Shown here one piece after another: positions 4,438 through 60,459 of a stretch of DNA of 64,000 nucleotides. Both the position numbers and the translations under genes were made by a program. The stretch covers positions 62,001-126,000 of the forward strand of contig NZ_MTSZ01000001.1 of the NCBI RefSeq assembly GCF_002118315.1, read 5' to 3'. Source of the stretch: Kiloniella majae. GTDB taxonomy: Bacteria > Pseudomonadota > Alphaproteobacteria > Kiloniellales > Kiloniellaceae. The notes beneath the pieces were generated by a model. The model saw nothing but the letters and a program-made list of their open reading frames with translations, was not told the origin of the DNA and made no database searches. Every line of letters begins with the position of its first letter. The first letter of the stretch is position 1.

Positions 4438-5823
4438 ATGAACAATACAACCGATCATTATTCTGAACAGGCTGATTTTTTAGAGGCACATCCTGAAATT
4501 GGTTTGATTGAGCTTCTTATCGCAGATGGTAATGGCATTTTACGCGGCAAGCGTATTACACGTGATAAACTAGCATCTGTTTACAAAGAAGGTATTCTTC
4601 TTCCCGGGTCGATCTTTTGCCTCGATACGTCAGGGGCCAACGTAGAAGGTACTGGTTTGGTTTGGGCCAATGGTGATGCAGATCGTGTCTGTCATGTTGT
4701 CCCCGACACGTTAAAACCAGCTCCATGGCATAGAAAAGGCCTTGCACAGGTTCTATTGACCATGCACGAAGAAGATGGTTCCCCCTTCTTTGCGGATCCC
4801 CGTCACGTCCTCAAAGGCATTATCGATCGCTTCACCAAAATGGGCCTCAAGCCAGTTACGGCTGTTGAACTTGAATTCTACCTTATCGACAAAGATAGAA
4901 CCATGGCTGGTTACCCGCAACCTCCTGTATCACCGATTTCAGGATTACGGCATGCTCAGCCCGCAGTTTACGGCATTGACGAGCTTTATGATTTTGATGA
5001 CTTTCTCGACGAGGTTGCTGCAACAGCAAAAGCGCAAGGCATACCCGCCGACACCATGGTTGCGGAATATGCCCCCGGACAATATGAAGTCAACCTGCAC
5101 CATGTAGATGACCCTCTCCTTGCTTGCGATCAGGCTGTGTTGCTCAAACGCCTGATCAAACACGTCGCTCAACGTCACGGTATGGAAGCGACCTTTATGG
5201 CCAAGCCCTATACACAAGAATCAGGGAACGGCACCCATATCCACGTCAGCCTGCTGGACGACGACGGGAAAAATATCTTTCAGGGTAAAGGGACAGAAGA
5301 CGAAGAACGCCTGAGCGATGAAATAAAATGGGCGATGGGCGGCTTGTGTGATTCCATGGCAGAATCAATGGCACTTCTTGCCCCGAATGCGAATTCCTAT
5401 CGTCGTTTTCAGTTAGGTTCTTATGCCCCCCATACTCCTTGCTGGGGGATCAATAACAGAACGGTTGCCTTGCGTATTCCCGCTGGCCATCCTGCCGCAA
5501 CCCGGATTGAACACAGGTTAGCCGGCGCGGACGCCAGCCCACACCTTGTCATGTCAGCGGTTTTATCCGGTATACTCCATGGATTAGAGAATAAGATAGA
5601 TCCCGGCCCCCGGATTACAGGGAATGCCTATGAGGAAAAAGAAGCAACGCTGCCTAACATATGGCCAGATGCGATAGATATCTTTGAAAAGGCAGAGATA
5701 TTGCCAAAATACATGGGCAAAGAATTCTGTAACGTCTTTAGCATTTGCAGAAAAACCGAACGAGAGCGCTTCAACAGCCATATATCCCCTGTCGAATTTG
5801 ATTGGTACCTGAGGAGCGTTTGA
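4438..5823 (+). CDS. puuA: Glutamine synthetase family protein, gamma-glutamylputrescine synthetase-like (second copy)
   Basis: From the ATG at 4438 the product is 461 residues (an in-frame TTG 27 bases upstream is possible; neither has a strong ribosome site). It has a glutamine synthetase beta-grasp N-domain (IADGNGILRGKRI) and catalytic domain with VELEFYL, GQYEVNLHH, THIHVSL, NSYRRFQLG and NNRTVALRIP. In the family the enzyme makes gamma-glutamylputrescine from putrescine, glutamate and ATP. It is the first gene of the rightward run and is followed after 2 bases by the PuuB-like oxidase that would use its product, so this copy is the better PuuA candidate. Regulation through the upstream PuuR-like box is likely. 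Confidence 0.87.
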   Translation: MNNTTDHYSEQADFLEAHPEIGLIELLIADGNGILRGKRITRDKLASVYKEGILLPGSIFCLDTSGANVEGTGLVWANGDADRVCHVVPDTLKPAPWHRKGLAQVLLTMHEEDGSPFFADPRHVLKGIIDRFTKMGLKPVTAVELEFYLIDKDRTMAGYPQPPVSPISGLRHAQPAVYGIDELYDFDDFLDEVAATAKAQGIPADTMVAEYAPGQYEVNLHHVDDPLLACDQAVLLKRLIKHVAQRHGMEATFMAKPYTQESGNGTHIHVSLLDDDGKNIFQGKGTEDEERLSDEIKWAMGGLCDSMAESMALLAPNANSYRRFQLGSYAPHTPCWGINNRTVALRIPAGHPAATRIEHRLAGADASPHLVMSAVLSGILHGLENKIDPGPRITGNAYEEKEATLPNIWPDAIDIFEKAEILPKYMGKEFCNVFSICRKTERERFNSHISPVEFDWYLRSV

Positions 5824-48171: not shown

Positions 48172-49170
48172 ATGCTCACCGAATTCAATTCATCTGTGCC
48201 GCTGGCCTTCACCCCGACGCCCCTACATCTTTTAAGTAAGTTATCAAAAGAACTAAACGGGCCAGAGATCTTTATCAAACGGGATGACTGCACAGGCCTT
48301 GCCGGGGGCGGCAATAAAACCCGCAAGCTTGAGTTTCTGATTGCGGATGCGCTCGACAAGGAAGCAACCTGTGTGATTACGGCTGGTGGCCTGCAATCCA
48401 ACCATGTTCGACAGACTGCTGCCGCAGCGGCACGTTACGGGTTAAAGTGTCATCTCGTTCTGGTGCGAAATGTTGACTGGCAAGATCCGGCTTACCAGAC
48501 ATCAGGGAACCTTGTTCTCGACAAGTTGCTCGGCGCCGAGATTGCTATTCATCCCGGCGGCTCTGACCGGGACCGCATTATGGACGAATTGGCATCGGAT
48601 ATGACAGAAGCTGGCGAAACGCCCTATATCATTCCCGTTGGCGGCTCTAATGCAGTTGGCGCCCTTGGCTATGCCAGTGCCCTGATGGAAATTCACGAAC
48701 AGTGCCGCAGCTTGGGCCTCAGCCCCAAAGCGCTTTACCACGCCACATCCAGCGGCGGAACGCAAGCTGGCCTCATTGCCGGCATGATCACCTTGAAACG
48801 TCCCTTCCCTATTCTCGGGGTAGAAGTTGATGGAGACCCCGCGCCAGTTACAGACGCCATCAAGTCTATTGTGCCGGAAACGCTGGAGCGCCTTGGTCGG
48901 TTCGAGACTTGGGACCCAGAACAGGACTTGCAGGTGATAACGGGCTATGGCGGCAGTAACTATGGCATTCCATCTGAAGCAGGAAACGAAGCCATTGAAC
49001 TGCTCGCCAGAACCGAAGGTATATTGCTGGACCCCGTCTATTCCGGCAAAGCCTTTGCTGGCCTTGTCGATCATATCAGACAGGGCCGATTGACCAAAAG
49101 CGATACAGTGATCTTCCTCCACACGGGCGGTGCTCAGGCACTTGGGGCTTACCCTTCCCTCTTCACCTAA
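48172..49170 (+). CDS. dcyD: D-cysteine desulfhydrase / ACC deaminase family protein
   Basis: The 332-residue product is a fold-type II PLP enzyme: FTPTPLHLLSKLSKELNGPEIFIKRDDCTGLAGGGNKTRKLEFLIADAL with the PLP lysine at K49, QSNHVRQTAAAAARYGLKCHLVL, PVGGSNAVGALGYASALMEI, SSGGTQAGLIAGM and C-terminal FLHTGGAQALGAYP. DcyD breaks D-cysteine into pyruvate, sulfide and ammonia; ACC deaminase is the close alternative and active-site discrimination was not attempted. It stands as a single gene followed by repeat copy A. Confidence 0.83.
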   Translation: MLTEFNSSVPLAFTPTPLHLLSKLSKELNGPEIFIKRDDCTGLAGGGNKTRKLEFLIADALDKEATCVITAGGLQSNHVRQTAAAAARYGLKCHLVLVRNVDWQDPAYQTSGNLVLDKLLGAEIAIHPGGSDRDRIMDELASDMTEAGETPYIIPVGGSNAVGALGYASALMEIHEQCRSLGLSPKALYHATSSGGTQAGLIAGMITLKRPFPILGVEVDGDPAPVTDAIKSIVPETLERLGRFETWDPEQDLQVITGYGGSNYGIPSEAGNEAIELLARTEGILLDPVYSGKAFAGLVDHIRQGRLTKSDTVIFLHTGGAQALGAYPSLFT

Positions 49171-49176
49171 TTCACG

Positions 49177-49278
49177 TAGTTAATCATCTTAACCCTTTCT
49201 CTTCGTTGCTTCATCCTTCATGTAGGTTACCTACACTTCTCTCTTCACGCCTTGAGCAAAGATTAATTTGAATAACTA
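49177..49278 (+). repeat. TAG...CTA inverted-repeat element, copy A
   Basis: A 102-bp intergenic element 6 bases after the desulfhydrase-like gene. The ends TAGTTAATCATCTTAA and the reverse complement of TTAATTTGAATAACTA match at 13 of 16 positions. The centre carries TGTAGGT-T-ACCTACA (49221-49235) followed by CTCTTCACGCCTTGA. Confidence 0.8.
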
Positions 49279-49317
49279 TACAAATTTGAACCGCTATAAA
49301 GACCGAAAGATAAAAAG

Positions 49318-49968
49318 ATGAAACGAGTTTGTTTTCTGGGCGCATCTGTCATGGAGGGTATGGGCGATGAAGCGCGGCTGGGAATGCCCGGACGCCTCGC
49401 CCTCTTGGAAACAGATAGCAGCGAAAACTTTATCCACTATAACCTGGGTGTCAGAGGGCAAACGCTCAAGGAAATATCAGATCGGGCCGCAGCTGAATGT
49501 CAGGCACGATTTAAAGATGCAAAGGACTTTATTGTCTTTGCCACGGGGTCTAACGATTTCGCCCTTATCGAAAGTGGTATACCCCAAAAACCTATGCCGA
49601 GAACACCACGCCGTAGAGCCATGAACAACTTCAAAGCCCTGATGACAGAGCTTTCAGAAATCGCCCCCTTGCTTGTCTTTGGCCCGACACCTGTTGATGA
49701 AAGCAAGCTGCCCTTTTTCTCGACAGTATCTAATATGAATTTTGACTTCAAAAACGCGGAACTGGCCAGCGGTTCAGCAGAATACAGTGCGATCTGTCAG
49801 GACCTGAACATCCCCTATATCAATATGCACAAAGCCCTGAGCGCGAGCGATGATTTCATGGCCGGACTGACAGAGAATGACGGTCTGCATTCAACCGGAA
49901 AAGGCTATCAGGCCATGGCAGAAATCGTGCAATCTTCGCCCCATTGGCAGGGCCTGATTCAGGCCTAA
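49318..49968 (+). CDS. SGNH/GDSL family hydrolase
   Basis: The 216-residue product has the SGNH hydrolase blocks: block I FLGASVMEG (nucleophile Ser), block II GVRGQT, block III TGSNDF, and block V ENDGLHSTGKGYQAMA (Asp and His). The family covers esterases, lipases and acyl-thioesterases; no signal peptide is visible, so it is probably cytoplasmic. Substrate unknown. It stands between repeat copies A and B, each a few dozen bases or less away, and has no operon partner. Confidence 0.85.
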   Translation: MKRVCFLGASVMEGMGDEARLGMPGRLALLETDSSENFIHYNLGVRGQTLKEISDRAAAECQARFKDAKDFIVFATGSNDFALIESGIPQKPMPRTPRRRAMNNFKALMTELSEIAPLLVFGPTPVDESKLPFFSTVSNMNFDFKNAELASGSAEYSAICQDLNIPYINMHKALSASDDFMAGLTENDGLHSTGKGYQAMAEIVQSSPHWQGLIQA

Positions 49969-49971
49969 ACA

Positions 49972-50084
49972 TAGTCGTCTAACTTAACTTTTTCTTCCAA
50001 TATCTCACAGGCTGTTTCATCACTCATGTAGGTCACCTACACGTCGCGCTTTACGCCTTAAGCTAAAATTAAGTTAGACAACTA
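49972..50084 (+). repeat. TAG...CTA inverted-repeat element, copy B
   Basis: A 113-bp element 3 bases after the SGNH gene. Its ends are the best preserved of the family: TAGTCGTCTAACTTAACTTT against the reverse complement of AAATTAAGTTAGACAACTA, with 2 mismatches in 20. Central TGTAGGT-C-ACCTACA lies at 50027-50041, followed by CTTTACGCCTTAAG. Confidence 0.85.
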
Positions 50085-50191
50085 TTCCAAACACCTCGAT
50101 TTATGAGGCTACAGAGTTCAGGAACTTCCGACAACGCGCCGCCAAATAAAATAGCCCTAACTAAAGCAGCCCCAATTAAAACAGCTAGGGG

Positions 50192-50650
50192 CTAAATTGG
50201 TAATTCCAGACCACGTTTGACGTTTTCCATCACAACGGTGGTAGTGAATTCCTGTATTGCCGGGTTGTCAAAAAACACCCGCTTGGTGAAGCTGTCATAG
50301 GTTGTCATGTTTTCCGCTGTGACGATCAACAAAAAGTCAAAAGCCCCGGTTACGTTGTAACACTGCTGAATTTCAGGTTCGGCAAGGAATTGGACCGTTA
50401 ACTTCTTCAACATTTCTGCGTGGCAACGCTCGATAATTACCTGCACAATCAGGGTCAGGTTATGGTTTGAAACATCGGGGTTGATCACCGCAATTTCTTT
50501 TTCGATGGCCCCCATATCGCGCAAGCGTTTAATACGGCGTTGACATGCGGTCGCGGACAGACCAACCTGCTCCGCAATGCTATCTGATTTAAGGCGGGAA
50601 TTTTCCTGTAATAATCTCAGGATAGCTTTGTCGAAATTATCTATTTTCAT
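50192..50650 (-). CDS. Lrp/AsnC family transcriptional regulator
   Basis: The 152-residue product has an AsnC helix-turn-helix (DNFDKAILRLLQENSRLKSDSIAEQVGLSATACQRRIKRLRDMGAIEKEIAVIN) and a RAM ligand domain (VIIERCHAEMLKKLTVQFLAEPEIQQCYNVTGAFDFLLIVTAENMTTYDSF). Such proteins bind amino acids and form octamers. It is divergent from an EamA exporter gene, a common pairing in which the regulator controls amino acid export. A perfect TTTTGC-A-GCAAAA dyad (50797-50809) lies in the gap. Confidence 0.9.
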   Translation of the reverse strand: MKIDNFDKAILRLLQENSRLKSDSIAEQVGLSATACQRRIKRLRDMGAIEKEIAVINPDVSNHNLTLIVQVIIERCHAEMLKKLTVQFLAEPEIQQCYNVTGAFDFLLIVTAENMTTYDSFTKRVFFDNPAIQEFTTTVVMENVKRGLELPI

Positions 50651-50900
50651 CTTGGTCTTTATGTTGGTCTGTCTTTGAAGTGGTCTGGCTCAAGCTAATC
50701 AGAGGGGCAACACTAATCTGTTGCGGCTTCCAGTTACAGGTCGAAAAAACGCTTCGATTTCTATTTGTTGCAGTTTTTTGATCTGGAAACCACTTATTTT
50801 GCAGCAAAACGATGCAAATAATCAGCTATGGTTAAGATAATAAACACTAAGTACTGGCTTTTTCAGTTTCAGGTTAATTTTTGAGTATCAGGTAACGGGT
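50651..50900. promoter_or_regulatory. Divergent lrp/eamA control region
   Basis: The 250-base gap carries TTTTGC-A-GCAAAA (50797-50809), a perfect 6-bp dyad about 90 bases before the EamA start, and nearby repeats of the half-site (GTTGCAG, GATGCAAA). This fits an Lrp-type operator. No gene is seen. Confidence 0.5.
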
Positions 50901-51815
50901 ATGGATCAGGTTTTAAAAGCAGAGCAAAGCACACTGACAATGGGTATTATCTACGGCCTGATGGCTGCTCTGTTGTGGGGGGCGTGGCCTGTGGTATCCA
51001 GCCTCGGTCTTCAGAACCAGACCCTGACGCCATATGATATTACGGCCCTGCGCTTTGGGGTGGCGGGCACCATCCTTCTACCCCTGATCCTCAAACGTGG
51101 TTTCAAAGGCATCGGCTTGCCTGGCGGGCTTCTTTTTGCCTTCGGAGCTGGCGCGCCCTATATGCTGCTCACTGTGACAGGACTTAACTTTGCCCCGGCA
51201 AGTCACATGGGGATCATTGCGCCAAGCTGCATGATGACCCTGTCTACAATTGGCGGCTGGTTTATCCTTGGGGATCGCCCCGACAGAAACCGTTTGCTCG
51301 GTCTGGGGGTTATTATCCTCGGCGTTGCCCTGCTCGGTTGGTCAGGTCTGGCGATGGCGGGTGATAACCAGTGGATGGGACACCTGTTGTTTGTCGCCGG
51401 GGGTGGCTGTTGGGCGTGCTATACGGTAGGCACAAAGTATTTCAAGGCAGATCCACTCCACGCCACAGCCTTGGTTGCCGTGCTTTCCATGGTGATTTAC
51501 CTGCCGCTCTACTTTATCTTTGGCGATCCACAGATCTTTGTTGCACCGATCAAAGAAACCCTGTTTCAGGCCGCTTTCCAAGGCATCGGTTCTGCTGTTC
51601 TCGCCCTGCTGTTCTATACCAAGGCAGTTGCCTTGCTCGGCGCAGCAAAGGGCGCAGTCTTCGCCGCACTGGTCCCCGGTATAGCCGTTATTCTTGCCCT
51701 GCCCGTTCTTGGTGAAATCCCGACGACCATAGAGATCATTGGCGTCAGTATTGTGACCATCGGCATGATCGGTGCGCTTGGCCTTATTAAGGGCAACAAA
51801 AAGAAGAGTACCTGA
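50901..51815 (+). CDS. EamA/DMT family transporter
   Basis: The 304-residue product has ten hydrophobic segments in two repeated EamA domains (about 10-150 and 160-297), with GLMAALLWGAWPVVSSLGLQ at the start, LGVIILGVALLGW, and GAAKGAVFAALVPGIAVILALPVLGEIPT in the second half. DMT exporters move amino acids or other metabolites out of the cell. The divergent Lrp-type regulator suggests an amino acid substrate. The last ten codons are duplicated just beyond the stop (see 51785-51841). Confidence 0.88.
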   Translation: MDQVLKAEQSTLTMGIIYGLMAALLWGAWPVVSSLGLQNQTLTPYDITALRFGVAGTILLPLILKRGFKGIGLPGGLLFAFGAGAPYMLLTVTGLNFAPASHMGIIAPSCMMTLSTIGGWFILGDRPDRNRLLGLGVIILGVALLGWSGLAMAGDNQWMGHLLFVAGGGCWACYTVGTKYFKADPLHATALVAVLSMVIYLPLYFIFGDPQIFVAPIKETLFQAAFQGIGSAVLALLFYTKAVALLGAAKGAVFAALVPGIAVILALPVLGEIPTTIEIIGVSIVTIGMIGALGLIKGNKKKST

Positions 51816-51841
51816 TTAAAAACAACAAAAAGAAGAGTGCT
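51785..51841 (+). repeat. 29-bp tandem duplication of the EamA gene 3' end
   Basis: CAACAAAAAGAAGAGT occurs at 51794-51809 and again at 51823-51838, inside a longer imperfect copy with a period of 29 bp. The first copy encodes the C-terminus LIKGNKKKST and stop; the second, after the stop, would encode LIKNNKKKSA and stop. It is a small duplication that left the gene intact. Confidence 0.7.
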
Positions 51842-51846
51842 TAAAG

Positions 51847-51874
51847 GTGGTGTGGCACCACGCCCCCTTTTTTT
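51847..51874 (+). terminator. Probable terminator after the EamA gene
   Basis: GTGGTG-TGG-CACCAC (51847-51861) is followed by GCCCCC and seven T residues. The six-base gap between the stem and the T-run makes it atypical, though AAAG/CTTT could close the base. Confidence 0.6.
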
Positions 51875-51943
51875 GATCTATTTGCGTCAGGAAAATTCGT
51901 CGCTTTTAGAGAAGCAGTATTCCGAGTAAATTGCTAGGTCATA

Positions 51944-52045
51944 TAGCAGTAAAACTAAACGATCAATCAGCGTTATGTCATCGCTCGTGTAGGTCAGCTA
52001 CACTTCGCTCTTTACGCCTTGATTAAAAGTTCGTTTTCGCGACTA
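51944..52045 (+). repeat. TAG...CTA inverted-repeat element, copy C
   Basis: A 102-bp copy between the EamA and hydantoinase genes, and the most diverged: terminal repeats match at about 10 of 17 positions. The centre reads GTGTAGGTCAGCTACAC (51987-52003), one base off the perfect hairpin, followed by CTCTTTACGCCTTGA. Confidence 0.72.
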
Positions 52046-52055
52046 TTAACTCTTT

Positions 52056-54107
52056 ATGGCTCAGGTATTTTCAGGGAATTATTCGGGAATGTTGTTAGGT
52101 ATTGATACGGGTGGCACCTATACGGATGCGGTTCTTTTCACAGAAGAAGGCGGTGTGCTGCGGACCGCCAAGTCACTGACAACCAAACACGACCTGTCCA
52201 TCGGCATCTGTGATGCGGTCAACCGGATTATGGATCGCGAAGGCGACCAGATCCGCATGGTATCCCTGTCCACCACCCTTGCCACCAACGCCATTGTCGA
52301 AGCTCATGACAGCCCGGTCTGTCTGATCATGATCGGCTATGACAAGGGGTCACTCGACCGATCCAACCTCGGCACCGCCATTGGCAAGAACCCCTATGTC
52401 TTTATTGATGGCGGGCATACACCCCTGGGGGATGAGCAATCCCCGCTGGATATCGACGCAGTGAAACGGGCCATTGACGAACACGCCCCAAATGTATCCG
52501 CCTTTGCGGTTGCGGGCTATTTCTCGGTGCGCAATGCATCCCACGAAGAAGCCGTCCGCAACCTGATACTGGAAAAGACAGACCGCCCGGTGACCTGTGC
52601 CCACGAACTGTCATCGGGGCTGGATGCCCCGCGCCGCGCCCTCACCGCATTCCTGAATGCACAGTTGATCCCGCAACTGCATCAGCTGATCCATTCCGTC
52701 GATATCATGTTACAGGAAAAGGGCATCAAGGCCCCCGTGATGGTGGTCAAGGGCGACGGGTCACTGATATCTGCGCAAACCGCGCTGGAACGTCCGGTTG
52801 AAACTATTCTGTCCGGTCCTGCAGCCTCTGTGGTCGGGGCCAAGTATCTCTCTGGCGCCAGCGATGTCTTTGTGGTCGATATGGGCGGCACCACCACCGA
52901 TATCGCGATCTTGATGGATGGCGAACCCAAACTCAGCGAAGAAGGCGCCAACGTCGGCGGCTGGCGCACCATGGTCAAGGCCGTCGCCGTCAGCACCTAT
53001 GGACTGGGCGGCGACAGTGAAGTCGCCCTCAACCGCCCTAAAAAGGGCCTTACTATTGGTCCTCGACGGGCTTATCCCATTAGTCTGTTGGCGCAACAAC
53101 ACCCCGGGGTTCTGGGAGAACTACAACAACAGCTCCGTAATGATCGCATTGGCGAGCACGACGGGCGCTTTGCCCTGAAGCTGCGCGAACTCAACACCGC
53201 CCTGACCAGCCTGTCTCGGCTGGAGCTGGAAATATGGGAAAGTCTGGCCGATGGCCCCGTTGCCCTGAACAAGTTACTGGAACGTCCGGCCATGGCTGGC
53301 CCCTTGCAACGATTGATTGATCGCGGCCTCGTGATTAATGCGGGCCTAACCCCAAGTGACAGCAGCCATATACTGAACAAACAAAACAACTGGACCCGCG
53401 ATGGCGCCCTGCTCTGCGCGCAACTGTTTTTAAGACAATCCCAGCGCGATAATTACCTGTTGGGCGTCACCCCCGATGACCTTGCGGAAATGATTTATCA
53501 ACAAACAATCGTTCAGGCGGGTAAAACCATTCTCGATACTGCCTTTATCGAAGAAAACATTCCGCAGATGACCAATACCCAAAGTCTGGGCATGGCCCTG
53601 CTGGACAATGCGCTGCGAAACAAAGCAGATACCGATAAAGGCGACAGCAAAGGCACCTCTCCCCTTTTGGACTTTACCGTCAAACTGGGCAGAGGCATTG
53701 TGGCAACGGGCGCGCCGTCAGCCATCTATTACCCGGAAATCACCGCGCGCCTGAACACCGAACTGAACCTGCCGGAAAACGCCGATGTGTCAAACGCAGT
53801 CGGTGCCGTTTGCGGCGGCGTTGTCCAGAAATACACCGTCATGATCTCCTCCCCCGAAAAGGGCCGCTTCCGCACCCATATGGGCACCGAGCAAAAGAAC
53901 TTCACCGTCGCGCAAGACGCCATCGACTACGCCAAATCCCACGCAGAAGAAAAGGCCTATCAAATGGCAGAGGAAAGCGGTGCCACAGATATCATCGTAG
54001 AGGTCGACCAGTTCGATAAAATCATCACCGACGCCGGCGGCGACCAACTCTTCATCGAAAGCGCTATTATTGCAACGGCGAAGGGGCGGCCTGTTTTGAT
54101 GGGCTGA
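52056..54107 (+). CDS. Hydantoinase/oxoprolinase A-subunit family protein, without a B-subunit neighbour
   Basis: The 683-residue product has the Hydant_A_N domain (GIDTGGTYTDAVLFTEEGG, LSTTLATNAIVEAH) and the hydantoinase A ATPase-like domain (SGPAASVVGAKYLSG, VVDMGGTTTDIAILMDGEP, STYGLGGDSEV). The middle and C-terminal regions (about 330-683) differ from classical HyuA and include a possible winged-helix-like stretch (LELEIWESLADGPVALNKLLERPAMAGPLQRLIDRGLV). A later ATG at 52089 would start closer to the conserved domain. Classical enzymes need a HyuB partner; none is adjacent, so this belongs to a stand-alone type of unknown substrate. Sequence is notably GC-rich. Confidence 0.83.
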   Translation: MAQVFSGNYSGMLLGIDTGGTYTDAVLFTEEGGVLRTAKSLTTKHDLSIGICDAVNRIMDREGDQIRMVSLSTTLATNAIVEAHDSPVCLIMIGYDKGSLDRSNLGTAIGKNPYVFIDGGHTPLGDEQSPLDIDAVKRAIDEHAPNVSAFAVAGYFSVRNASHEEAVRNLILEKTDRPVTCAHELSSGLDAPRRALTAFLNAQLIPQLHQLIHSVDIMLQEKGIKAPVMVVKGDGSLISAQTALERPVETILSGPAASVVGAKYLSGASDVFVVDMGGTTTDIAILMDGEPKLSEEGANVGGWRTMVKAVAVSTYGLGGDSEVALNRPKKGLTIGPRRAYPISLLAQQHPGVLGELQQQLRNDRIGEHDGRFALKLRELNTALTSLSRLELEIWESLADGPVALNKLLERPAMAGPLQRLIDRGLVINAGLTPSDSSHILNKQNNWTRDGALLCAQLFLRQSQRDNYLLGVTPDDLAEMIYQQTIVQAGKTILDTAFIEENIPQMTNTQSLGMALLDNALRNKADTDKGDSKGTSPLLDFTVKLGRGIVATGAPSAIYYPEITARLNTELNLPENADVSNAVGAVCGGVVQKYTVMISSPEKGRFRTHMGTEQKNFTVAQDAIDYAKSHAEEKAYQMAEESGATDIIVEVDQFDKIITDAGGDQLFIESAIIATAKGRPVLMG

Positions 54108-54295
54108 TGGGGGTCGCAAAACATCATCATAGGTTGTATTTTCAGTATTTTCCTATACTGTTTGATTTGTTATTGGAACGTCTGCTTCCAACCCATAGCG
54201 GTCCTCATCGTTCAGATGGCAGAACGACAACTATGCATACAAAGTTACTGTCGCCCTATAAATGTGCTAAGGTAGCAAAATAGAAGGAGATCAAT

Positions 54296-54667
54296 GTGGT
54301 GCTCATCCGTGCTTGTCCAATTCTTCCAAGTTCTGATTTTGAGACGACGAAAAAATTCTACAGCGATTTAGGATTCGAGTTTGGGTCTGAATATCTCGAA
54401 GAAGGATATTTGATCCTTCATCGAGATAAGATTGAGTTGCATTTTTTCAAGTCCCCTCAACATGTTGCAGAAACTTCAGATCATGGTGTTTTTGTCAGGG
54501 TTGATGACGCTAGCGTTCTTTCCAACGAATACAAAGCTCTAAATTTACCAGTTGAAGGCATCCCGCGGTTTACGGAAGCCGAAAACAAACCTTGGGGTAT
54601 TTGCGAGCTAGCAGTCATCGACACTGATGGCAACTTGATTCGAGTAGGTCACATTATGGATACCTGA
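54296..54667 (+). CDS. VOC superfamily protein, bleomycin-resistance-like
   Basis: The 123-residue product starts at a GTG with AAGGAGA 5 bases upstream. It has the bleomycin resistance protein layout: ACPILPSSDFETTKKFYSDLGFEFGSEYLEEGYLILHRDKIELHFF, then DHGVFVRVDDASVLSNEYKALN and WGICELAVIDTDGNLIRVGHIM. These dimeric proteins sequester bleomycin-type drugs; without experiment it is only a family assignment. It is a single gene in a 680-base gap, more AT-rich than the hydantoinase gene before it. Confidence 0.8.
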   Translation: MVLIRACPILPSSDFETTKKFYSDLGFEFGSEYLEEGYLILHRDKIELHFFKSPQHVAETSDHGVFVRVDDASVLSNEYKALNLPVEGIPRFTEAENKPWGICELAVIDTDGNLIRVGHIMDT

Positions 54668-54780
54668 TCTGGTAAGTTTGGGCTCAGAGTTGTCGTTCGC
54701 TTCGAATTCAACTAACTTCCGCTTCTGGCACTAAGCAGCTAAAAAACATACTGTAACCGTCCCAGAACAAACTTTTACCA

Positions 54781-55320
54781 TCACCCCAAAATCACACCGC
54801 TTGTCACTCCACTAATCATCGCCCCGGTATTAATCGGGTGGTATATTGGCATTGGCGGGCGGGTGGCGTTTTCGACCCTTCGGTGGATCCATTGTCGGTC
54901 TTCCATGCGTCGTAGGGACTGTGACAAGGCGCGGTCTGTGATGGTGGATAGATTGCGCTTGATCTCACTGAATTGACTTGGCTTTTGTAGGGTTGCCAGA
55001 ACGGGCAAGGTCCAGGATCTGCGTATCAAGTCCTGCTCTGATTCTTCCGAAACATCCAGAATTTTACTCGCCATTTCGGCTGCGACTTTGCCCAGCGGGG
55101 TCAGGCGGAATTCCGGGCGCAGGGGGTGCCCGTGGCCGGGGTTGCGTTCCAACAGGCCGATATTGATCAGATGATCCATACTTTGTGCGAAGGCCGTTCG
55201 GCTTGCGCCCGTTGCGCTCAGCAAGGGGGCTTGCCGCCCCGGAACGCCAGCGTGGAGCTTTGCAAGGATGGGCAGCGCCCATGCCCGTGATGTGATGTTG
55301 ACAAATACATTTATGTCCAT
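54781..55320 (-). CDS. Double HxlR-type winged-helix transcriptional regulator
   Basis: The 179-residue product appears to hold two HxlR-like winged helices in tandem: residues about 8-80 (SRAWALPILAKLHAG...GASRTAFAQSMDHLINIGLLERNPGHGHPLRPEFRLTPLG) and about 98-168 (RRSWTLPVLATLQKPSQFSEIKRNLSTITDRALSQSLRRMEDRQWIHRRV). The W-x-LP-x-L-x-L pattern recurs in both. HxlR proteins usually form dimers; here one chain may supply both DNA-binding units. It is divergent from a VOC gene, with a dyad in the gap. Confidence 0.82.
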   Translation of the reverse strand: MDINVFVNITSRAWALPILAKLHAGVPGRQAPLLSATGASRTAFAQSMDHLINIGLLERNPGHGHPLRPEFRLTPLGKVAAEMASKILDVSEESEQDLIRRSWTLPVLATLQKPSQFSEIKRNLSTITDRALSQSLRRMEDRQWIHRRVENATRPPMPIYHPINTGAMISGVTSGVILG

Positions 55321-55324
55321 AAAG

Positions 55325-55337
55325 TATAGTTACTATA
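55325..55337. promoter_or_regulatory. TATAGT-T-ACTATA dyad between the HxlR-type gene and a VOC gene
   Basis: A perfect 6-bp dyad around one base, 5 bases from the HxlR-type start codon and 68 from the VOC start. HxlR-family operators commonly contain GTA...TAC arms, as here (AGTATAGTTACTAT). It overlaps the regulator leader, suggesting autorepression. Confidence 0.55.
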
Positions 55338-55404
55338 TTTTAAGAAGACAAGAAAGCCCTAAAGGAAAAACCCCGGAAATGAAAAGCTCAGTAAAGGAAA
55401 AGAT

Positions 55405-55779
55405 ATGTCGCTCGTAAATTTGAATGAAATGATCACAATTGCAATGTCGGTCACTGACCGTCACAAAAGTGCGGATTGGTACCAGGAAATGCTCGGCTTT
55501 GAGCTTATGTATCATGCGGATGAAGCCGGCTGGTCAGAGATTAGAACCAACACACAAAACGTGACAATCGGTCTGGGCGAACACACAAAACCGGCACCGG
55601 GAAACTGTGTTCCTGTGTTTGGCATTCCTGACCTTGATGCCGCACGGGGCAAGATGGAAGATGCCGGCGTTCGATTTGATGGCCCAACAGACGTGGTTGA
55701 AGGCATGGTCAAAACGGCGACCTTTTATGACCCCGACAACAATGCGCTTATGCTTGCCGAAGATATATCAGGGGATTGA
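55405..55779 (+). CDS. VOC superfamily (glyoxalase-like) protein
   Basis: The 124-residue product has two VOC modules: ITIAMSVTDRHKSADWYQEMLGFELMYHADEAGWSEIRTN and PVFGIPDLDAARGKMEDAGVRFDGPTDVVEGMVKTATFYDPDNNALMLAED. A metal-binding role is likely, substrate unknown. GGAAA sits upstream of the start. It is divergent from the double HxlR-type regulator, which probably controls it. Confidence 0.82.
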   Translation: MSLVNLNEMITIAMSVTDRHKSADWYQEMLGFELMYHADEAGWSEIRTNTQNVTIGLGEHTKPAPGNCVPVFGIPDLDAARGKMEDAGVRFDGPTDVVEGMVKTATFYDPDNNALMLAEDISGD

Positions 55780-55921
55780 TCTGGGGCTGTGGGCTGATAG
55801 GCCTTAGGCCTCGTTCTTTTTGAGGCTATTCTCTGAACTTCTTTATTGGAGCTCGTTATCAGGGCCAGTATGGGCGGCGAACCACCCTATACTGGCCACC
55901 CCATATTGGCCGATAATTTTC
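55780..55921. other. Intergenic hairpins between the VOC and quinone reductase genes
   Basis: GGCCAGTAT (55863-55871) pairs perfectly with ATACTGGCC (55889-55897), extended inward by GGG/CCC, and a third related copy CCATATTGGCC follows at 55901-55911. A smaller GCCTC/GAGGC hairpin lies at 55808-55826. Neither is followed by a T-run; they may act as bidirectional transcript ends for the converging genes. Confidence 0.5.
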
Positions 55922-56926
55922 TTATAGTTCTATAACAACTTTACCAACGGCGTTACCACTTGTCAGATGGCTATAGGCTTCGTTCACATCCATGAAGCCA
56001 AAATGATTTGGATCCACCAAAGGTGTCAGCCCCCCTTGATCCACAATCTCTGCAAGGGTGGATAAGGCAATGTTATGGTCCTCGCGCTTATGATTGTGCA
56101 ACATTGGAATAAGCATAAACACCACATGAAGGGACAGACCTTTAAAATGTGCCGGAGTTAAATCAAGCTCTGTCATCGCAACGGTTGTTGCAACGTTGCC
56201 GTTTAGTGATGCAGCTTCAAAAGAATTAAGCATGTTAGGCCCGCCAACGGTGTCAAAAACAACATCGAAACCAGCGCCTTTGGTATATTGAGCCACATAA
56301 TCAGAAACGGCTTCTTCCCGGAAATCAATGGCCGTTGCGCCATAGCCTCTAATCGCGTCAAGCTGTTCCGTGCCGGTTCCTGTGGCGTAAACATCTGCGC
56401 CAAAATATTTTGCAAGCTGAACAACAACATGTCCAACACCACCAGCGCCGCCGTGAACAAGGATCATTTGCCCGTTTTTGGCCCCTGCACGCTTTAGACC
56501 TTCAAGTGCCGTAATACCAACCAGAGGAAGCGCAGCGGCTTCGCGCATGGACAGACCTTTAGGCTTACGAGCAATCAAATTAGCATCAGCAAGTATGAAT
56601 TCCGCTAAGGCCCCTTGCAATTCAGCAAGACCGCCCGCACAGCCATACACTTCATCACCGATGGTATACTCTGTTACCCCTTCGCCGACAGCCTCTACCG
56701 TTCCAGCAAAATCCATTCCAAGAACAGCAGGTAAGTCGGGTGCTATGGGTAAGTTTTCTTGCCCCATTTCCCGGATCATCGTATCGACGGTATTAACGCT
56801 TGTTGCAGAAACTCGGACGATTACGTGGCCAGGCTTAAGTTCTGGGGTTGGTATGTCTGCTTGTTCAAATTTAGCATTCTCACCGTAACTATTAAGAATC
56901 ATTGCTTTCATAAGTTGGGTTTTCAT
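55922..56926 (-). CDS. Zinc-independent medium-chain reductase, quinone oxidoreductase family
   Basis: From the second ATG (56926; GGAG 7 bases upstream; an ATG one codon earlier also possible) the product has 334 residues. It has the MDR GroES-like domain (KAMILNSYGENAKFEQADIPTPELKPGHVIVRVSATSVNTVD) and a Rossmann domain with LVHGGAGGVGHVVVQLAKYFGADVYATG. The zinc-binding cysteines of alcohol dehydrogenases are absent, placing it with quinone/enone reductases that use NADPH. It is a single gene; a divergent regulator is not adjacent. Confidence 0.85.
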   Translation of the reverse strand: MKTQLMKAMILNSYGENAKFEQADIPTPELKPGHVIVRVSATSVNTVDTMIREMGQENLPIAPDLPAVLGMDFAGTVEAVGEGVTEYTIGDEVYGCAGGLAELQGALAEFILADANLIARKPKGLSMREAAALPLVGITALEGLKRAGAKNGQMILVHGGAGGVGHVVVQLAKYFGADVYATGTGTEQLDAIRGYGATAIDFREEAVSDYVAQYTKGAGFDVVFDTVGGPNMLNSFEAASLNGNVATTVAMTELDLTPAHFKGLSLHVVFMLIPMLHNHKREDHNIALSTLAEIVDQGGLTPLVDPNHFGFMDVNEAYSHLTSGNAVGKVVIEL

Positions 56927-57052
56927 CATTTGGCTCCAAAGGTTTATCTAGAGCCAATCTAATCACTATCAAAATAGATATAAATGACATTTAAAAGAAT
57001 TCAGTATTCGTAATATCTATATAATCAAGCATGAGACATTTGACGTCTTAGA

Positions 57053-57661
57053 TCAGGAATAGGTCATCCGGAACGTAAGGCAGATGCGCTCGCCAGTTGG
57101 CTTGTTGGTCTTGGGGATCTGATGCAGCCAGTAGTGTTGGGTTTCGCCCTTCATCAATAACAGATTGCCCGCTTTCAGGTTGATATCGAACGGCAAGGTC
57201 GCGCCTGATTTTGGCTTGAATTGAAAAATCCGATCTCCGCCAAAGCTGAGCGAGGCGATGGCCGGGTTTGTGCCCAACTCTGCTTCGTCATCCGCATGCC
57301 ACGCGACGCTATCACGCTCGTGACGGTAGAGATTGCAAAGCGCGCTGTTATAGGTAAACCCGGTTAAGTGTTCCACCCGTTGCTTAAGGCTTAACAGCAA
57401 AGGCGTCATCGGCCTTGCCGGCATGTGCAGACGCGAATAGGTATAGTCCGAATCCCCGTACCATTGCTGTAAACGGGGGATCGGCACGGTCCGACCATGG
57501 AGGGAGATATGCGCTTGCTGCCAATCCAGGTCGGCTTTCAGCAGCTCAAAAATCTCTGCACTTTCATCAGTCGAATAGGCATTGGGAAAACAGGAAATAT
57601 CGGCTTGTGGGGCAGGATAGTGAATCACCTTCGTATCCGGTGTGTCCGGTGTATCTGGCAA
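57053..57661 (-). CDS. alkB: AlkB-like 2-oxoglutarate/Fe(II) dioxygenase
   Basis: The product is about 202 residues if translation starts at the TTG at 57661, which has GGGGGAGG 5 bases upstream; an in-frame GTG at 57676 is the alternative. It is an AlkB-family dioxygenase: NLYRHERDSVAWHADDEAELG (iron ligands His and Asp), ASLSFGGDRIFQFK, GETQHYWLHQIPK (second His) and GERICLTFR (2-oxoglutarate arginine). AlkB enzymes demethylate N1-methyladenine and N3-methylcytosine in DNA or RNA. The N-terminus has a short DTP repeat. It lies about 30 bases after the HTH gene, probably in one transcript. Confidence 0.86.
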   Translation of the reverse strand: MPDTPDTPDTKVIHYPAPQADISCFPNAYSTDESAEIFELLKADLDWQQAHISLHGRTVPIPRLQQWYGDSDYTYSRLHMPARPMTPLLLSLKQRVEHLTGFTYNSALCNLYRHERDSVAWHADDEAELGTNPAIASLSFGGDRIFQFKPKSGATLPFDINLKAGNLLLMKGETQHYWLHQIPKTNKPTGERICLTFRMTYS

Positions 57662-57690
57662 TCTACCCTCCCCCACTTAGCGTAACGAAC

Positions 57691-58299
57691 CTATGAAGTG
57701 GCTGTCTCTTCTGCGTCAGTGTCTTCCTCGAAAACCTCTTCCTCGACGGGCTCTTCCTCTGCTGCCTCGGTCTTTACTGCTTCGGCTTTTACTGTCTGGG
57801 ACTCTATAGTTTCTGTCTTGACAGTTTCTGCCCAGGCGAGACGGTTGGCTTCGCTATCTTCCTTGTCCCCAAGAAAGTTCTGATAACTATCGGGATCGAA
57901 GGTGACGGGAGCCAATATGATGCCTTCTCTTTTAAGCTCTATGCGTGCGCGGGTAATAACCGTGCTGTAGAGCTTGTGATAGCGAAATAGCTTGAAGAAG
58001 TCCGGCTTCCATTCTTTAAACACTTTATTGCCGAGGTAACGTATAACGGGAACGCTTTCGGGCTTGCCCTTCGCTTCGACGATATCGTCAACGGTTGCCA
58101 TAAGGTCTTCGACATAATCCTCGATCGATTCTTCGAGTTTGAGTAGTTCTGTGGCCTTTTCATCAGGAATTTCGGACTTTCCCTGTACCCAGCTAAAAAG
58201 ATCTCGTGCCGGGACTCTGAGAACGCCAGCGGCCTCGCGGTGGGTCATGCCCATTCCAAAGATAATATCATCCATCTGATCTGGTGTAAGTTTTGACAA
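57691..58299 (-). CDS. Helix-turn-helix protein with acidic C-terminal tail
   Basis: The 202-residue product has an N-terminal XRE-like helix-turn-helix (TPDQMDDIIFGMGMTHREAAGVLRVPARDLFSWVQGKSEIPDEKATELLKLEE, about 5-57), a central conserved domain (VIRYLGNKVFKEWKPDFFKLFRYHKLYSTVITRARIELKREGIIL), and a low-complexity tail from about 155 on, rich in Glu with repeated TVK.E units. No known family was recognised. It lies just upstream of the AlkB-like gene on the same strand and may regulate it or act in the same process. Confidence 0.72.
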   Translation of the reverse strand: MSKLTPDQMDDIIFGMGMTHREAAGVLRVPARDLFSWVQGKSEIPDEKATELLKLEESIEDYVEDLMATVDDIVEAKGKPESVPVIRYLGNKVFKEWKPDFFKLFRYHKLYSTVITRARIELKREGIILAPVTFDPDSYQNFLGDKEDSEANRLAWAETVKTETIESQTVKAEAVKTEAAEEEPVEEEVFEEDTDAEETATS

Positions 58300-58573
58300 T
58301 TTGTAACGTCCTGTTTTGTATAGGTATTGCTAAAACAACGTAAACAGTAATAGCAATAAGGTTAGCAGGCCTCACCCGTGTTGAAATCAAAGGTATGGTA
58401 TGAGACCCAATCGTTCTGGCGCCTGTGTAGCATGATCTGGCAGATTATGAACATATTATTTCAAAAGAGTTATGGCGACGGCCAAAGGATAAGCCACAAA
58501 TAAGAAAATGCTTCTTATCTCTCTGCTTATGACGCAAAAATTTTAATGTGCCACAATTATATCCACAATCCTA
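58300..58573. other. Intergenic stretch upstream of the HTH/AlkB pair
   Basis: 274 bases with no gene or recognisable signal beyond the presumed promoter of the leftward HTH gene near 58310-58370. The PilZ gene ends at its right edge. Confidence 0.35.
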
Positions 58574-58990
58574 TTACCTCAACCGCCCCAGAACGATCTT
58601 TTCCAGCGTATTAAAGTCTTTGTTGCCGATGTTCACAAAGCGGGCGCCGAGCTTTCCGTGGTCGGCATCGGCACGGCGGATTTCGATATCGATCAAAAAG
58701 GGATCAGCTTTTTTCAGCAGGATTTCGAGGCTGACGATATCACCGACTTTAAGGCCCAATCCTTCGATATCCAGCTTTTCACCGTCGTCAACGATAACAT
58801 CCATATCGCCGTATTCTTCAAGGTCAGTTTCTTCCCCCTTGATGCCAACCCCGCCCGGACTGATATCATTAATGGTCACGCGCACGCCCTTGAGAATGGC
58901 ATCCAGTCCCTTTAACTTTGCGGCAAGTTTCACTGCGCGGCGATGGTCGCGTCTTCTTTCTTTACTATAAACCGCTACTACCTTCGCCAT
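58574..58990 (-). CDS. PilZ domain protein (putative c-di-GMP effector)
   Basis: The 138-residue product has the PilZ c-di-GMP binding motifs: the arginine switch RRDHRRAVKL near the N-terminus (about residues 13-22) and DISPGGVGI (about 42-50), followed by the beta-barrel. PilZ proteins alter motility, polysaccharide synthesis or other outputs on binding c-di-GMP. The downstream partner is unknown. It is a single gene, divergent from the FemAB-like gene, with repeat copy D in the gap. Confidence 0.87.
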   Translation of the reverse strand: MAKVVAVYSKERRRDHRRAVKLAAKLKGLDAILKGVRVTINDISPGGVGIKGEETDLEEYGDMDVIVDDGEKLDIEGLGLKVGDIVSLEILLKKADPFLIDIEIRRADADHGKLGARFVNIGNKDFNTLEKIVLGRLR

Positions 58991-59012
58991 AAAATCTTAA
59001 ATCCCATCATTC

Positions 59013-59114
59013 TAGTCATCCAATCTAACTCTTTCTTATCGTTGTTTCATCGTTCGTGTAGGTCACCTACACGTCTCTCTTCACGCCTTAAGTAAAAGCT
59101 AGGTTTAATGACTA
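59013..59114 (+). repeat. TAG...CTA inverted-repeat element, copy D
   Basis: A 102-bp copy between the PilZ and FemAB-like genes. Terminal repeats match at 19 of 25 positions (left end TAGTCATCCAATCTAACTCT). The centre CGTGTAGGT-C-ACCTACACG (59055-59073) is a perfect 9-bp hairpin, followed by CTCTTCACGCCTTAAG. Confidence 0.85.
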
Positions 59115-59232
59115 ACGTTAAAAGTTGCATAAGAATAGCACGAATATATCGGGAAATCATTTACAAAGCCATAGATAAAGCATTAAGGATAATAGATGAT
59201 TCGCCAAAAAAATAGCTAACAACAGCTCTTCT

Positions 59233-60267
59233 ATGCCTCAAAAACAGACGTCACAAAAACAGACCAAACCAACCGCCAAAGCATCAGGCACATCACCGGA
59301 CGCAAAGGTATTGGATATCAAGTGGAACGACGTTTCCGTGCGCCAGTGGCGGGACCTCGTGCGCAAGGCAGAGCAATCAAACCTGTTGCAAAGCTGGCCC
59401 TATGCACAAGCCGTCTTGTTGACCGAACGTCTGGTCGGAAAATTTGCCACCATTTACTGGCAGGGGCGAATTGTCGGTATCTGTCAGGTGCTGGAACAAA
59501 AGCTGTTGGGCGTATTTCACAAGGTACGGCTCTATCGCGGGCCGCTGTGGCTGGAACCCAATATCCCGCAAGAGGTTCACGAATTCTTCTGGGCGGAAAT
59601 CCAGAAACGCTATCCCGCACGTCCCTGGCGGTTTCGATACTTCCTGCCGGAAATGCCGGATACAGAAGAAAACCGTGCCTTGCTGGCGAAGTTTGACCTC
59701 AACCCTATTCAGACCGATGGCTATTCATCGATCTGGCTGGACCTGACTCAGCCCGAAGAAACCCTGCGCGCGAACCTGAAACAGAACTGGCGCAATACCC
59801 TTAACCAGTCAGAGAAAAAAGGCCTGTCACTCGATCTGGATACTGAGGGCAAGCACCTGAACTGGCTGTTGAAACTCAGCGAGATGGACAAGATCCTCAA
59901 GGAATTCAAAGGTCCAAGCCCCGCGTTGGTTGCGCACCTGAAACGCTTTACCAAAGACCGGGGTGATTTCCTGTTGATGCGTGCCTTACAAAATCCTCAA
60001 AAAGGCCAAGATAAAGAAGCTGTCGGTGCCATTCTGTTGTTCCTGCACGAAGGCAGCGCAACCTATCTGGTGGGGTGGAACTCGCAGGAAGGACGCGATG
60101 CCCGTGCGCACAATTACCTGTTGTGGAATGCCCTGTTAGAGCTGAAAAAGCGTGACGTCAAATGGCTAGATCTCGGCGGGATCAACCCCGATGACGCCAA
60201 GGGCGTCACCTATTTCAAAAAAGGCCTCGGTGGCACCCCCTTTACCCTCGTCGGCAGCTACAACTAG
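59233..60267 (+). CDS. FemAB-like GNAT-fold acyltransferase
   Basis: The 344-residue product has two GNAT-like halves as in FemAB/BioF2-type acyltransferases: SNLLQSWPYAQAVLLTERLVGKFATIYWQGRIVGICQVLEQK, LYRGPLWLEPN, then LKQNWRNTLNQSEKKGLSLDL and GAILLFLHEGSATYLVGWNSQEGRDARAHNYLLWNALLELKKRDVKWLDLGGINPDDAKGVTYFKKGLGG. FemAB enzymes add amino acids from aminoacyl-tRNA to lipid II in Gram-positives; Gram-negative relatives serve in capsule, exopolysaccharide or lipid modification. Role here unknown. No ribosome site is evident. Confidence 0.82.
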   Translation: MPQKQTSQKQTKPTAKASGTSPDAKVLDIKWNDVSVRQWRDLVRKAEQSNLLQSWPYAQAVLLTERLVGKFATIYWQGRIVGICQVLEQKLLGVFHKVRLYRGPLWLEPNIPQEVHEFFWAEIQKRYPARPWRFRYFLPEMPDTEENRALLAKFDLNPIQTDGYSSIWLDLTQPEETLRANLKQNWRNTLNQSEKKGLSLDLDTEGKHLNWLLKLSEMDKILKEFKGPSPALVAHLKRFTKDRGDFLLMRALQNPQKGQDKEAVGAILLFLHEGSATYLVGWNSQEGRDARAHNYLLWNALLELKKRDVKWLDLGGINPDDAKGVTYFKKGLGGTPFTLVGSYN

Positions 60268-60343
60268 GTGGCGAGAGACACTGTCTGGTTATAACGACTT
60301 CTAACTATAACCGATTTACTCTTCCATCTATTTAACTGTTCAA

Positions 60344-60459
60344 TAGTTGCTATACTTGATTTCTGTTCAAGGCGTGAAGAGAGACGTGTAGGCGACCTAC
60401 ACGAACGATGAAACAACCCATGAGATAATTTGGGGAACAGGAGTTAAGTAGAGTCACTA
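60344..60459 (-). repeat. TAG...CTA inverted-repeat element, copy E, overlapping a gene end
   Basis: A 116-bp copy in the opposite orientation. Terminal repeats match at 13 of 19 positions; the centre CGTGTAGGC-G-ACCTACACG (60385-60403) is a 9-bp hairpin with one mismatched pair. Its right end reaches into the YeeE/YedE-like gene and encodes that protein's last residues S-D-S-T and the TAA stop (60444-60446). Confidence 0.82.

Follow-up and report, generated by a model that had tools for sequence, protein, structure and literature searches.

Five inverted repeats and their distribution in Kiloniella

The window, i.e. the whole 64-kb stretch of Kiloniella DNA analysed here, contains five short inverted repeats, each starting with TAG and ending with CTA, four on the forward strand and one on the reverse strand, just where the original prediction had placed them. 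Copies 1 (49177..49278), 3 (51944..52045) and 4 (59013..59114) are 102 bp long, lie on the forward strand and have their cores at 49196..49260, 51963..52027 and 59032..59096, respectively; copy 2 (49972..50084, forward strand, core 50001..50066) has 113 bp and copy 5 (60344..60459, reverse strand, core 60366..60423) 116 bp, both carrying an extra insert, which in copy 2 is of the AATATCTCACAG type. The core, as in copy 1, has the order inner stem P2, box A (in Kiloniella about GTTGTTTCATCGTTC), central hairpin, box B (about TTCTCTCTTCACGCCTT) and P2'. A core pattern derived from the five copies gave five matches at 0 mismatches in the window, namely those copies, and none in 100 dinucleotide shuffles. 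With model R1, for which copy 4 is the top match, no sixth copy was found in the 64-kb window at E ≤ 0.01; the remaining matches are mirror-strand matches of copies 2 and 4.

Their confinement to the right of the window holds within the window but not for the genome, where model R2 (E ≤ 0.01) finds the family at 14 distinct places (16 matches, two of them mirror matches). As scoring covered 150 of the 896 first-look candidates, 14 may be a lower bound. The copies thus recur across the genome; their absence elsewhere had been named beforehand as an outcome that would speak against the prediction. Five of the 14 genome copies lie within 11.3 kb, and none of 200 000 random placements was as tight. 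The family is present in seven of the nine genus genomes analysed, with elements of ~90–130 bp (102–116 bp in the window). Nearly all copies (57 of 60) lie outside ORFs of ≥100 aa, and, by crude ORF calls, they are found between 29 tandem, 15 convergent and 12 divergent gene pairs; within the tandem pairs the element has the same orientation as the genes in 13 cases and the opposite one in 16, i.e. without a clear bias.

By flank matching within the genus we obtained 18 groups of common sites, some species being without a copy at some of them; groups P and Q are less sure, since the flank match stops short of the element at one end or at both, and one locus (L085), the left flank of which resembles site G, was not assigned to any group. 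For the copies in the window, site F (copy 1) is common to G001 and not found in G005, site E (copy 2) is common to G001, G005 and G007, site C (copy 3) is common to G001 and not found in G005 and G004, site A (copy 4) is also occupied in G001, G004 and G005, and site B (copy 5) is common to G004 and G005, with G001 lacking the copy. Elements at the same places in distant species had been reckoned by the original prediction as a sign of conserved leaders. Within the genus, elements at the same places do exist in part; however, they vary in orientation and in where they lie with respect to genes, and empty sites exist.

Insertion at TA and the search for a mover

At one young copy, in G001, the filled site reads TA-[TAG...CTA]-TA, and the orthologous empty sites show a single TA in four of four sister species; this base-level reading comes from one insertion, the flanks at other sites being too diverged. 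The TA expected at both ends is indeed duplicated, but the duplicate is an extra TA outside TAG...CTA, and the TA of TAG is the element's own. The repeats have terminal inverted repeats and are short, non-coding, multicopy and dispersed, as is general for TA-specific MITEs. Because of the single-TA empty sites, the dispersal over the genome and the presence or absence between species at common regions, we regard them as a TA-inserting, MITE-like element rather than as a gene leader; as had been suggested, a small mobile element is present here in five copies. Copies decay after insertion. At site D, G001 carries a newer element in place of an older one, and elsewhere a 54-bp copy with its centre deleted was observed (L062, 2001–2054).

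An IS630-family element with matching ends (TAGTYGTTTAACTTAA for Kiloniella), which was to be looked for as the parent, was not found: in the nine genomes of the genus the end pattern, at up to 3 mismatches, occurs only in pairs ~100 bp apart or singly, and no autonomous element with matching ends was detected. DDE_3, the IS630-type transposase, was not found in the genome of the window, and the end check covered its strongest copy in the genus, in G001, which is broken and without matching ends; two partial DDE_3 copies occur in G002, a genome without elements. Among 18 chosen core-bearing genomes elsewhere, DDE_3 scores over the cut-off in four. By description only, the repeats can be likened to RUP of Streptococcus pneumoniae, which shares the TA target; RUP has 107 bp, IS630-Spn1 has been proposed as its mover, and no functional DNA motif is reported for it there (PMC2229807, section 5), whereas the Kiloniella repeats are without a matching IS630.

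A conserved core and its recurrence beyond the genus

When 60 copies are compared, the core is more alike than the ends. In the predicted fold, the terminal inverted repeats enclose the inner stem P2, and two unpaired, conserved strands flank a short hairpin at the centre. In comparison with shuffles, all five window copies except copy 3 fold better on at least one strand (z below −2). RNAalifold predicted no pairs on the 60-row alignment A4. Both core stems covary: in 82 cells both sides had changed, whereas shuffles gave 25.0 and sliding the structure gave 23 or fewer. This count was made on core alignment A6 with a structure named by the analyst; A6 holds 31 of 40 excised cores, nine deleted, redundant or poorly aligned ones having been omitted by hand (L116, L142, L148, L149, L150, L160, L169, L170 and L173), so that the structure is somewhat favoured.

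The core is also found far outside the genus. Model R2 detects it in 15 of 385 genomes, 12 of them from other families of the class, and R3, a covariance model built on 31 cores from Alphaproteobacteria, has matches in 73 of the 398 Pseudomonadota genomes searched, 64 of which belong to other classes (its matches in the window include the cores of copies 2 and 5, G000:C1:112001-112066 and G000:C1:122366-122423). Of 23 R3 loci examined, 22 of which are outside the class, 11 lie in TA-bounded inverted repeats (12/16 or better), as compared to 3 of 92 displaced centres. The structured centre is found again in mobile repeats of other proteobacteria. The larger TA-bounded inverted repeats around the R3 matches are not part of model R3.

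These results bear on an ordinary IS630-derived MITE, i.e. an internally deleted IS of which only the ends matter and the core is a neutral leftover. The TA target, the inverted ends and the 54-bp copy would fit such an origin, but it is the centre and not the ends that recurs between distant families, and the parent IS was not found in the genomes of the genus, which makes this reading rather unlikely. Indeed, the suspicion that more than a bare MITE is needed to account for the conserved strands is borne out by the recurrence of the core in other families and classes and by the covariation of both stems.

We consider it very improbable that the repeats are cis-regulatory RNAs or leaders, riboswitch-like or protein-binding, serving adjacent genes. 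The folding of four window copies and the covarying stems would agree with this, as would sites A and B, where the core changed less than the flanks (0.07 versus 0.11 and 0.04 versus 0.22, respectively). However, place and orientation relative to the genes (by crude ORF calls) are not fixed, and the clean TA insertion and the empty sites largely refute it already. Furthermore, the change rates in common copies are 0.13–0.15 for the core, 0.13–0.18 for the ends and 0.14–0.16 for the flanks; the core is thus not slower than either of the others, and a function kept after insertion is not indicated in general. At 17 sites, with one pair of common copies taken from each, 24 changes coincide in the two arms where 14.7 were expected, and 4 of 5000 shuffles attained 24 (rate differences between positions uncontrolled). 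Pairing is preserved in 11 of the 24 and is broken by 57 one-sided changes; compensatory change within the common copies is thereby weakly suggested. Left out of the arm-change and rate counts were site R, because of its poor ends, and, for site D, the row of G001, where the newer element stands. Neither did Rfam assign a family: no match reached the gathering score in the window, and a search of 49100–52100 at E up to 5 gave one chance match at 49605–49760, outside the elements. Searching five further loci (L125, L126, L127, L056 and L108) gave one weak match, off the element in L127 (cow-rumen-1, 24.3 bits, cut-off 53.4), and 17 loci (cores, ERIC, Correia and Cupriavidus) gave only rRNA, tRNA and V_AS5, the last on ERIC. 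Also very improbable is a single-stranded element transposing in folded form with the help of an HUH/Y1-type enzyme (as REP/IS200) or a site-specific recombinase (as attC), to which the strong predicted hairpins with boxes in unpaired positions might point, since a 2-bp TA duplication with inverted ends is expected of a DDE enzyme rather than of Y1.

Relation to ERIC and Correia elements

ERIC (also IRU or RU-1; Enterobacterales and Vibrio; ~127 bp) resembles the Kiloniella repeats in its TA ends and in the order P2, box A, hairpin, box B, P2', and differs in its longer central hairpin and its different ends; the ERIC consensus has GCGTTG...CGCTCA as box A and ...GCCGCCTT in box B. With a profile trained without ERIC, the E. 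coli K-12 ERIC copy comes first among 908 candidates in 40 kb, with a score reached by 0 of 400 permuted profiles (1 of 400 for the alpha-only profile). For the three better-kept ERIC copies, in which layout and boxes are both present, 0, 0 and 1 of 400 permuted profiles did as well; for the diverged copies of Rahnella and of a K. pneumoniae plasmid the numbers are 35 and 157 (alpha-only 14 and 239), i.e. not significant, and for the K-12 REP control 29 and 66. Model R3 gives no match to ERIC, and in layout-free tests four of five ERIC copies are not significant. In box tests, whole-element dinucleotide shuffles reached the observed sum in 40, 64, 5, 34 and 18 of 150 cases for ERIC (Correia 36, Cupriavidus 6, same design), loop-only shuffles with the alpha profile in 37, 37, 33, 382 and 1961 of 3000 (Correia 112, Cupriavidus 88), and the other-class profile gave 11, 3, 8, 1035 and 1047 of 4000 (Correia 79, Cupriavidus 35). 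Taken together, there is good evidence for a common core with intact ERIC copies and weak evidence with decayed ones.

Correia elements (NEMIS; Neisseria) resemble the Kiloniella repeats in their TATAG...CTATA ends and a central hairpin, and have a putative box A starting with GGCGTTG and a putative box B ending with CGCCTT. Three of them rank 1–3 of 885 in 40 kb, with 2 of 18 permuted scans equal or better and a third nearly so; at the locus, 11 of 400 permuted profiles were equal or better (alpha-only 10 of 400), which is only suggestive of a common core. In other-class genomes we found TA-bounded TAGGG...CCCTA elements with near-perfect ends (e.g. L192, 270 bp), in which the core is the second of two inner hairpins; they are longer than the Kiloniella repeats and have unrelated ends, and we know of no name under which they have been published. 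By its description, the 101-bp repeat R178 of P. fluorescens was considered beside them. In a literature search covering few subscription papers, we found no publication on the Kiloniella repeats and, in the text available, no statement of a core common to ERIC, Correia and alphaproteobacterial elements.

The explanation that we consider highly probable as a whole is a family of non-autonomous mobile elements, inserting at and duplicating a TA dinucleotide, with a transposase acting in trans and a cis-acting core. Each copy can fold as a long hairpin and would be cut by an IS630/Tc1-mariner-type transposase, now missing or unrecognised. Between families it is the ends that diverge, whereas the core persists; we therefore take the core, to a greater degree than the outer ends, to be the likely cis-acting part, presumably recognised by a protein (the transposase or a host factor). 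The core would most likely be the heart of the ERIC repeats too. Whether ERIC, probably Correia, the TAGGG-type and the Kiloniella repeats form one ancient Pseudomonadota-wide superfamily, the folded core being read as a single strand by a common factor and the ends being free, we regard as evenly balanced. Such free ends would explain why end comparison has failed to reveal a parent transposon of ERIC or Correia, for which we know of neither parent nor mover. For decades, ERIC and Correia elements have served for typing, and their effects on mRNA have been studied. Conservation of the core across classes directs the search to a core-binding protein rather than to an IS with the same ends, and with the model such repeats can be detected in genomes other than those of the known hosts. 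V_AS5 scored 48.1 bits on the E. coli ERIC copy (cut-off 96) and was listed neither for the window nor for 49100–52100 at E up to 5, so that Rfam scores no ERIC similarity there. Our data suggest that a mobile repeat underlies some RNA records, such as V_AS5 of Rfam.

Repeat copies in the window and in the genus

The original prediction placed five repeats at 49177-49278, 49972-50084, 51944-52045, 59013-59114 and 60344-60459, one of them reversed, and the window sequence confirms these positions, the TAG...CTA ends and the imperfect inverted repeats; the first four copies are on the forward strand and the fifth on the reverse strand. A core pattern derived from the five copies (inner stem P2, box A, central hairpin, box B, P2') has exactly five matches in the window and none in 100 shuffles, and the first covariance model (R1) found no further copies there at E<=0.01. 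The cluster is real, as its density was reached by 0 of 200,000 random placements. In the homologous region of G001, G004, G005 and G007 the sets of copies partly differ from one another. This ~11-kb region (window 49177-60459; stretches L065, L080, L086 and L098) accumulates insertions at partly different sites in five Kiloniella genomes and is an insertion hotspot. A subfamily (e.g. 49972-50084 and 60344-60459) carries an additional ~11-14 nt of the AATATCTCATGG type 5' of box A; this stretch is longer in L065 2823 and L098 2001. Separately, window 51782-51838 contains a 28-nt near-duplicate (86%), the second copy of which spans the stop codon of an EamA transporter gene.

Scanning named genomes with the pattern returned five stretches, all from Kiloniella (K. 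litopenaei, K. spongiae, strain EL199 and one MAG). The window's own genome belongs to this genus too, and there the dispersed family occupies at least 14 distinct places, a count based on scoring 150 of the 896 candidates from a first look. The second model (R2) detects copies in the same seven of nine genus genomes as R1, G002 and G003 having none.

Insertion at TA, decay and the search for a partner

We found 18 groups of sites common to at least two species, judged on both flanks (groups P and Q less surely), and at some of these the element is absent in other species. The MITE reading of the original prediction implied a single TA at empty sites, and this is what four orthologues (G004, G000, G005, G007) contain: ...CCAAAAGA-TA-ACCG.... 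The filled site in G001 reads ...CCAAAAGA-TA-[TAG...CTA]-TA-ATCG..., so that this young copy (L067 2001-2104) is an inserted 104-bp element plus a 2-bp TA duplication. The alternative of regulatory leaders conserved at identical places has in its favour that sites are partly common to species, but the empty sites and a mixed gene context speak against it. Among 60 copies at >=44 bits (three with overlapping ORFs and one without a right neighbour dropped), the neighbouring gene pairs were tandem in 29 cases, convergent in 15 and divergent in 12, and in tandem pairs the copy ran in the same direction 13 times and in the opposite direction 16 times; the gene calls simply took the longest ORF and are locally wrong, e.g. 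at 59013, where a wrong-strand ORF lies over a PilZ gene. The Kiloniella repeats are most probably mobile elements and not leaders.

Once inserted, the parts of the element decay alike: over 42 ortholog pairs at 17 sites, divergence was 0.145 in box A, 0.136 in box B, 0.175 and 0.134 in the ends, and 0.139 and 0.156 in the flanks. The core is better kept than the flanks at sites A, B and J, and worse at H and M; L062 is a 54-bp copy lacking the centre. At L065 ~4665-4830 (G001), the remnant of an older element abuts a newer one whose end is the old element's end in relatives, an arrangement that probably arose by replacement or by recombination between copies.

The TA insertion resolved to the base, the copies, their decay and the covarying core described below are established, mobility itself being read from sequence comparison. 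A putative TA-cutting DDE enzyme would be supplied in trans, and the core may be the recognised or exposing part. An IS630-family transposase with matching ends, the expected partner, was not found in the nine genus genomes by end-pattern and DDE_3 searches, with the ends inspected for the G001 copy. The end pattern (<=3 mismatches) gave only pairs spaced ~100 bp apart or single occurrences, and the IS630-type domain DDE_3 (PF13358) was above cut-off in two of the nine genomes, G001 (one broken copy without matching ends) and G002 (two partial copies), and was not found in the window's own genome. Elsewhere, six of 18 selected core-bearing genomes had a DDE_3 match, four of them above cut-off. 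With no such partner at hand, the link to IS630 therefore comes from the target only.

The core beyond Kiloniella

The strands beside the central hairpin, already described as conserved, are indeed more alike than the ends in 60 Kiloniella copies, and the core recurs in other families. In the sister genus g4 (G016, G011), it is embedded in a larger element, likewise bounded by TA, that has different ends and an additional hairpin. These ~290-bp elements (L125 and L126 in G016, L127 in G011) have outer inverted repeats (CTAGGTTGAGGACTCATATTC in G016) and two inner hairpins, the core being the second; they share a three-way-junction layout with L192, an element of 270 bp whose TAGGGTCTGTTCCCGC ends are perfect. 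R2 had matches at E<=0.001 in 15 of 385 genomes of the class; 12 of these belong to other families, and several are multicopy (eight in G376, five in G080).

The third model (R3) was built from 31 of 40 alphaproteobacterial cores, nine of them from Kiloniella. Both stems covary, with 82 cells changed on both sides compared to 25.0 in shuffles and at most 23 when slid, a comparison somewhat favoured because the structure was picked by eye from the same sequences. R3 matched 73 of 398 phylum genomes at E<=0.001 (rough E-values), 64 of them outside the class, where the top score was 53.6 bits. Support from features outside R3 comes from TA-bounded inverted repeats round the matches: of the 23 of 29 loci with long flanks (22 outside the class), 11 reach >=12/16 and eight reach 14/16 (displaced centres: 3/92 and 0/92), and 12 have none at threshold. 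In a partly different set, 17 of 34 loci reach 12/16 (two rows being the same place). One core match (L203 1501-1565) lies in an rRNA operon spacer between two tRNA genes, and a second place in that genome scores equally. G170 and G237 (same class, 1.2-1.4 Mb) contain 12 and nine matches, which are at best candidate Rickettsia palindromic elements.

Comparison with ERIC and Correia

ERIC (Enterobacterales, Vibrio) and Correia/NEMIS (Neisseria), whose sequences were checked by search, are both ordered P2, box A, hairpin, box B, P2', like the Kiloniella core. A scanner trained on cores from alphaproteobacteria and other classes, with ERIC and Correia left out, placed an ERIC copy 1st among the 908 candidates of a 40-kb stretch of E. 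coli K-12; in a Neisseria stretch of the same length, three Correia copies took ranks 1-3 among 885. With 18 permuted profiles, ERIC never attained its true score (best 31.2 versus 43.3), yet still came 1st in two; Correia was equalled or beaten with two of the 18 profiles, and a third still placed its copies 2-4. Such high ranks persist because any strong hairpin profits from the stem terms. At single loci, the permutations out of 400 reaching the score numbered 0, 0 and 1 for better-kept ERIC copies, 35 and 157 for diverged ones, 11 for Correia, five for a Cupriavidus element and 29 for a REP control; an alpha-only profile gave 0, 1, 1, 14 and 239 (ERIC), 10 (Correia), four (Cupriavidus) and 66 (REP). 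Simpler tests of likeness gave weaker results, and R3 does not detect ERIC. ERIC likely belongs with the Kiloniella-type core, and Correia may do so. PMC2267715 describes V. cholerae ERIC as shortened by erosion of the ends, and a search that retrieved no more of NEMIS than its central 46 bp; both fit a core outlasting the ends.

The Rfam family V_AS5 (RF02818, termed a Vibrio antisense RNA) matches an E. coli ERIC (L174 259-382, 48.1 bits) and may therefore be an ERIC copy. The Neisseria gonorrhoeae record NZ_CP119140.1 (L175, L211) is filed as a plasmid; its size of 2.17 Mb suggests a chromosome.
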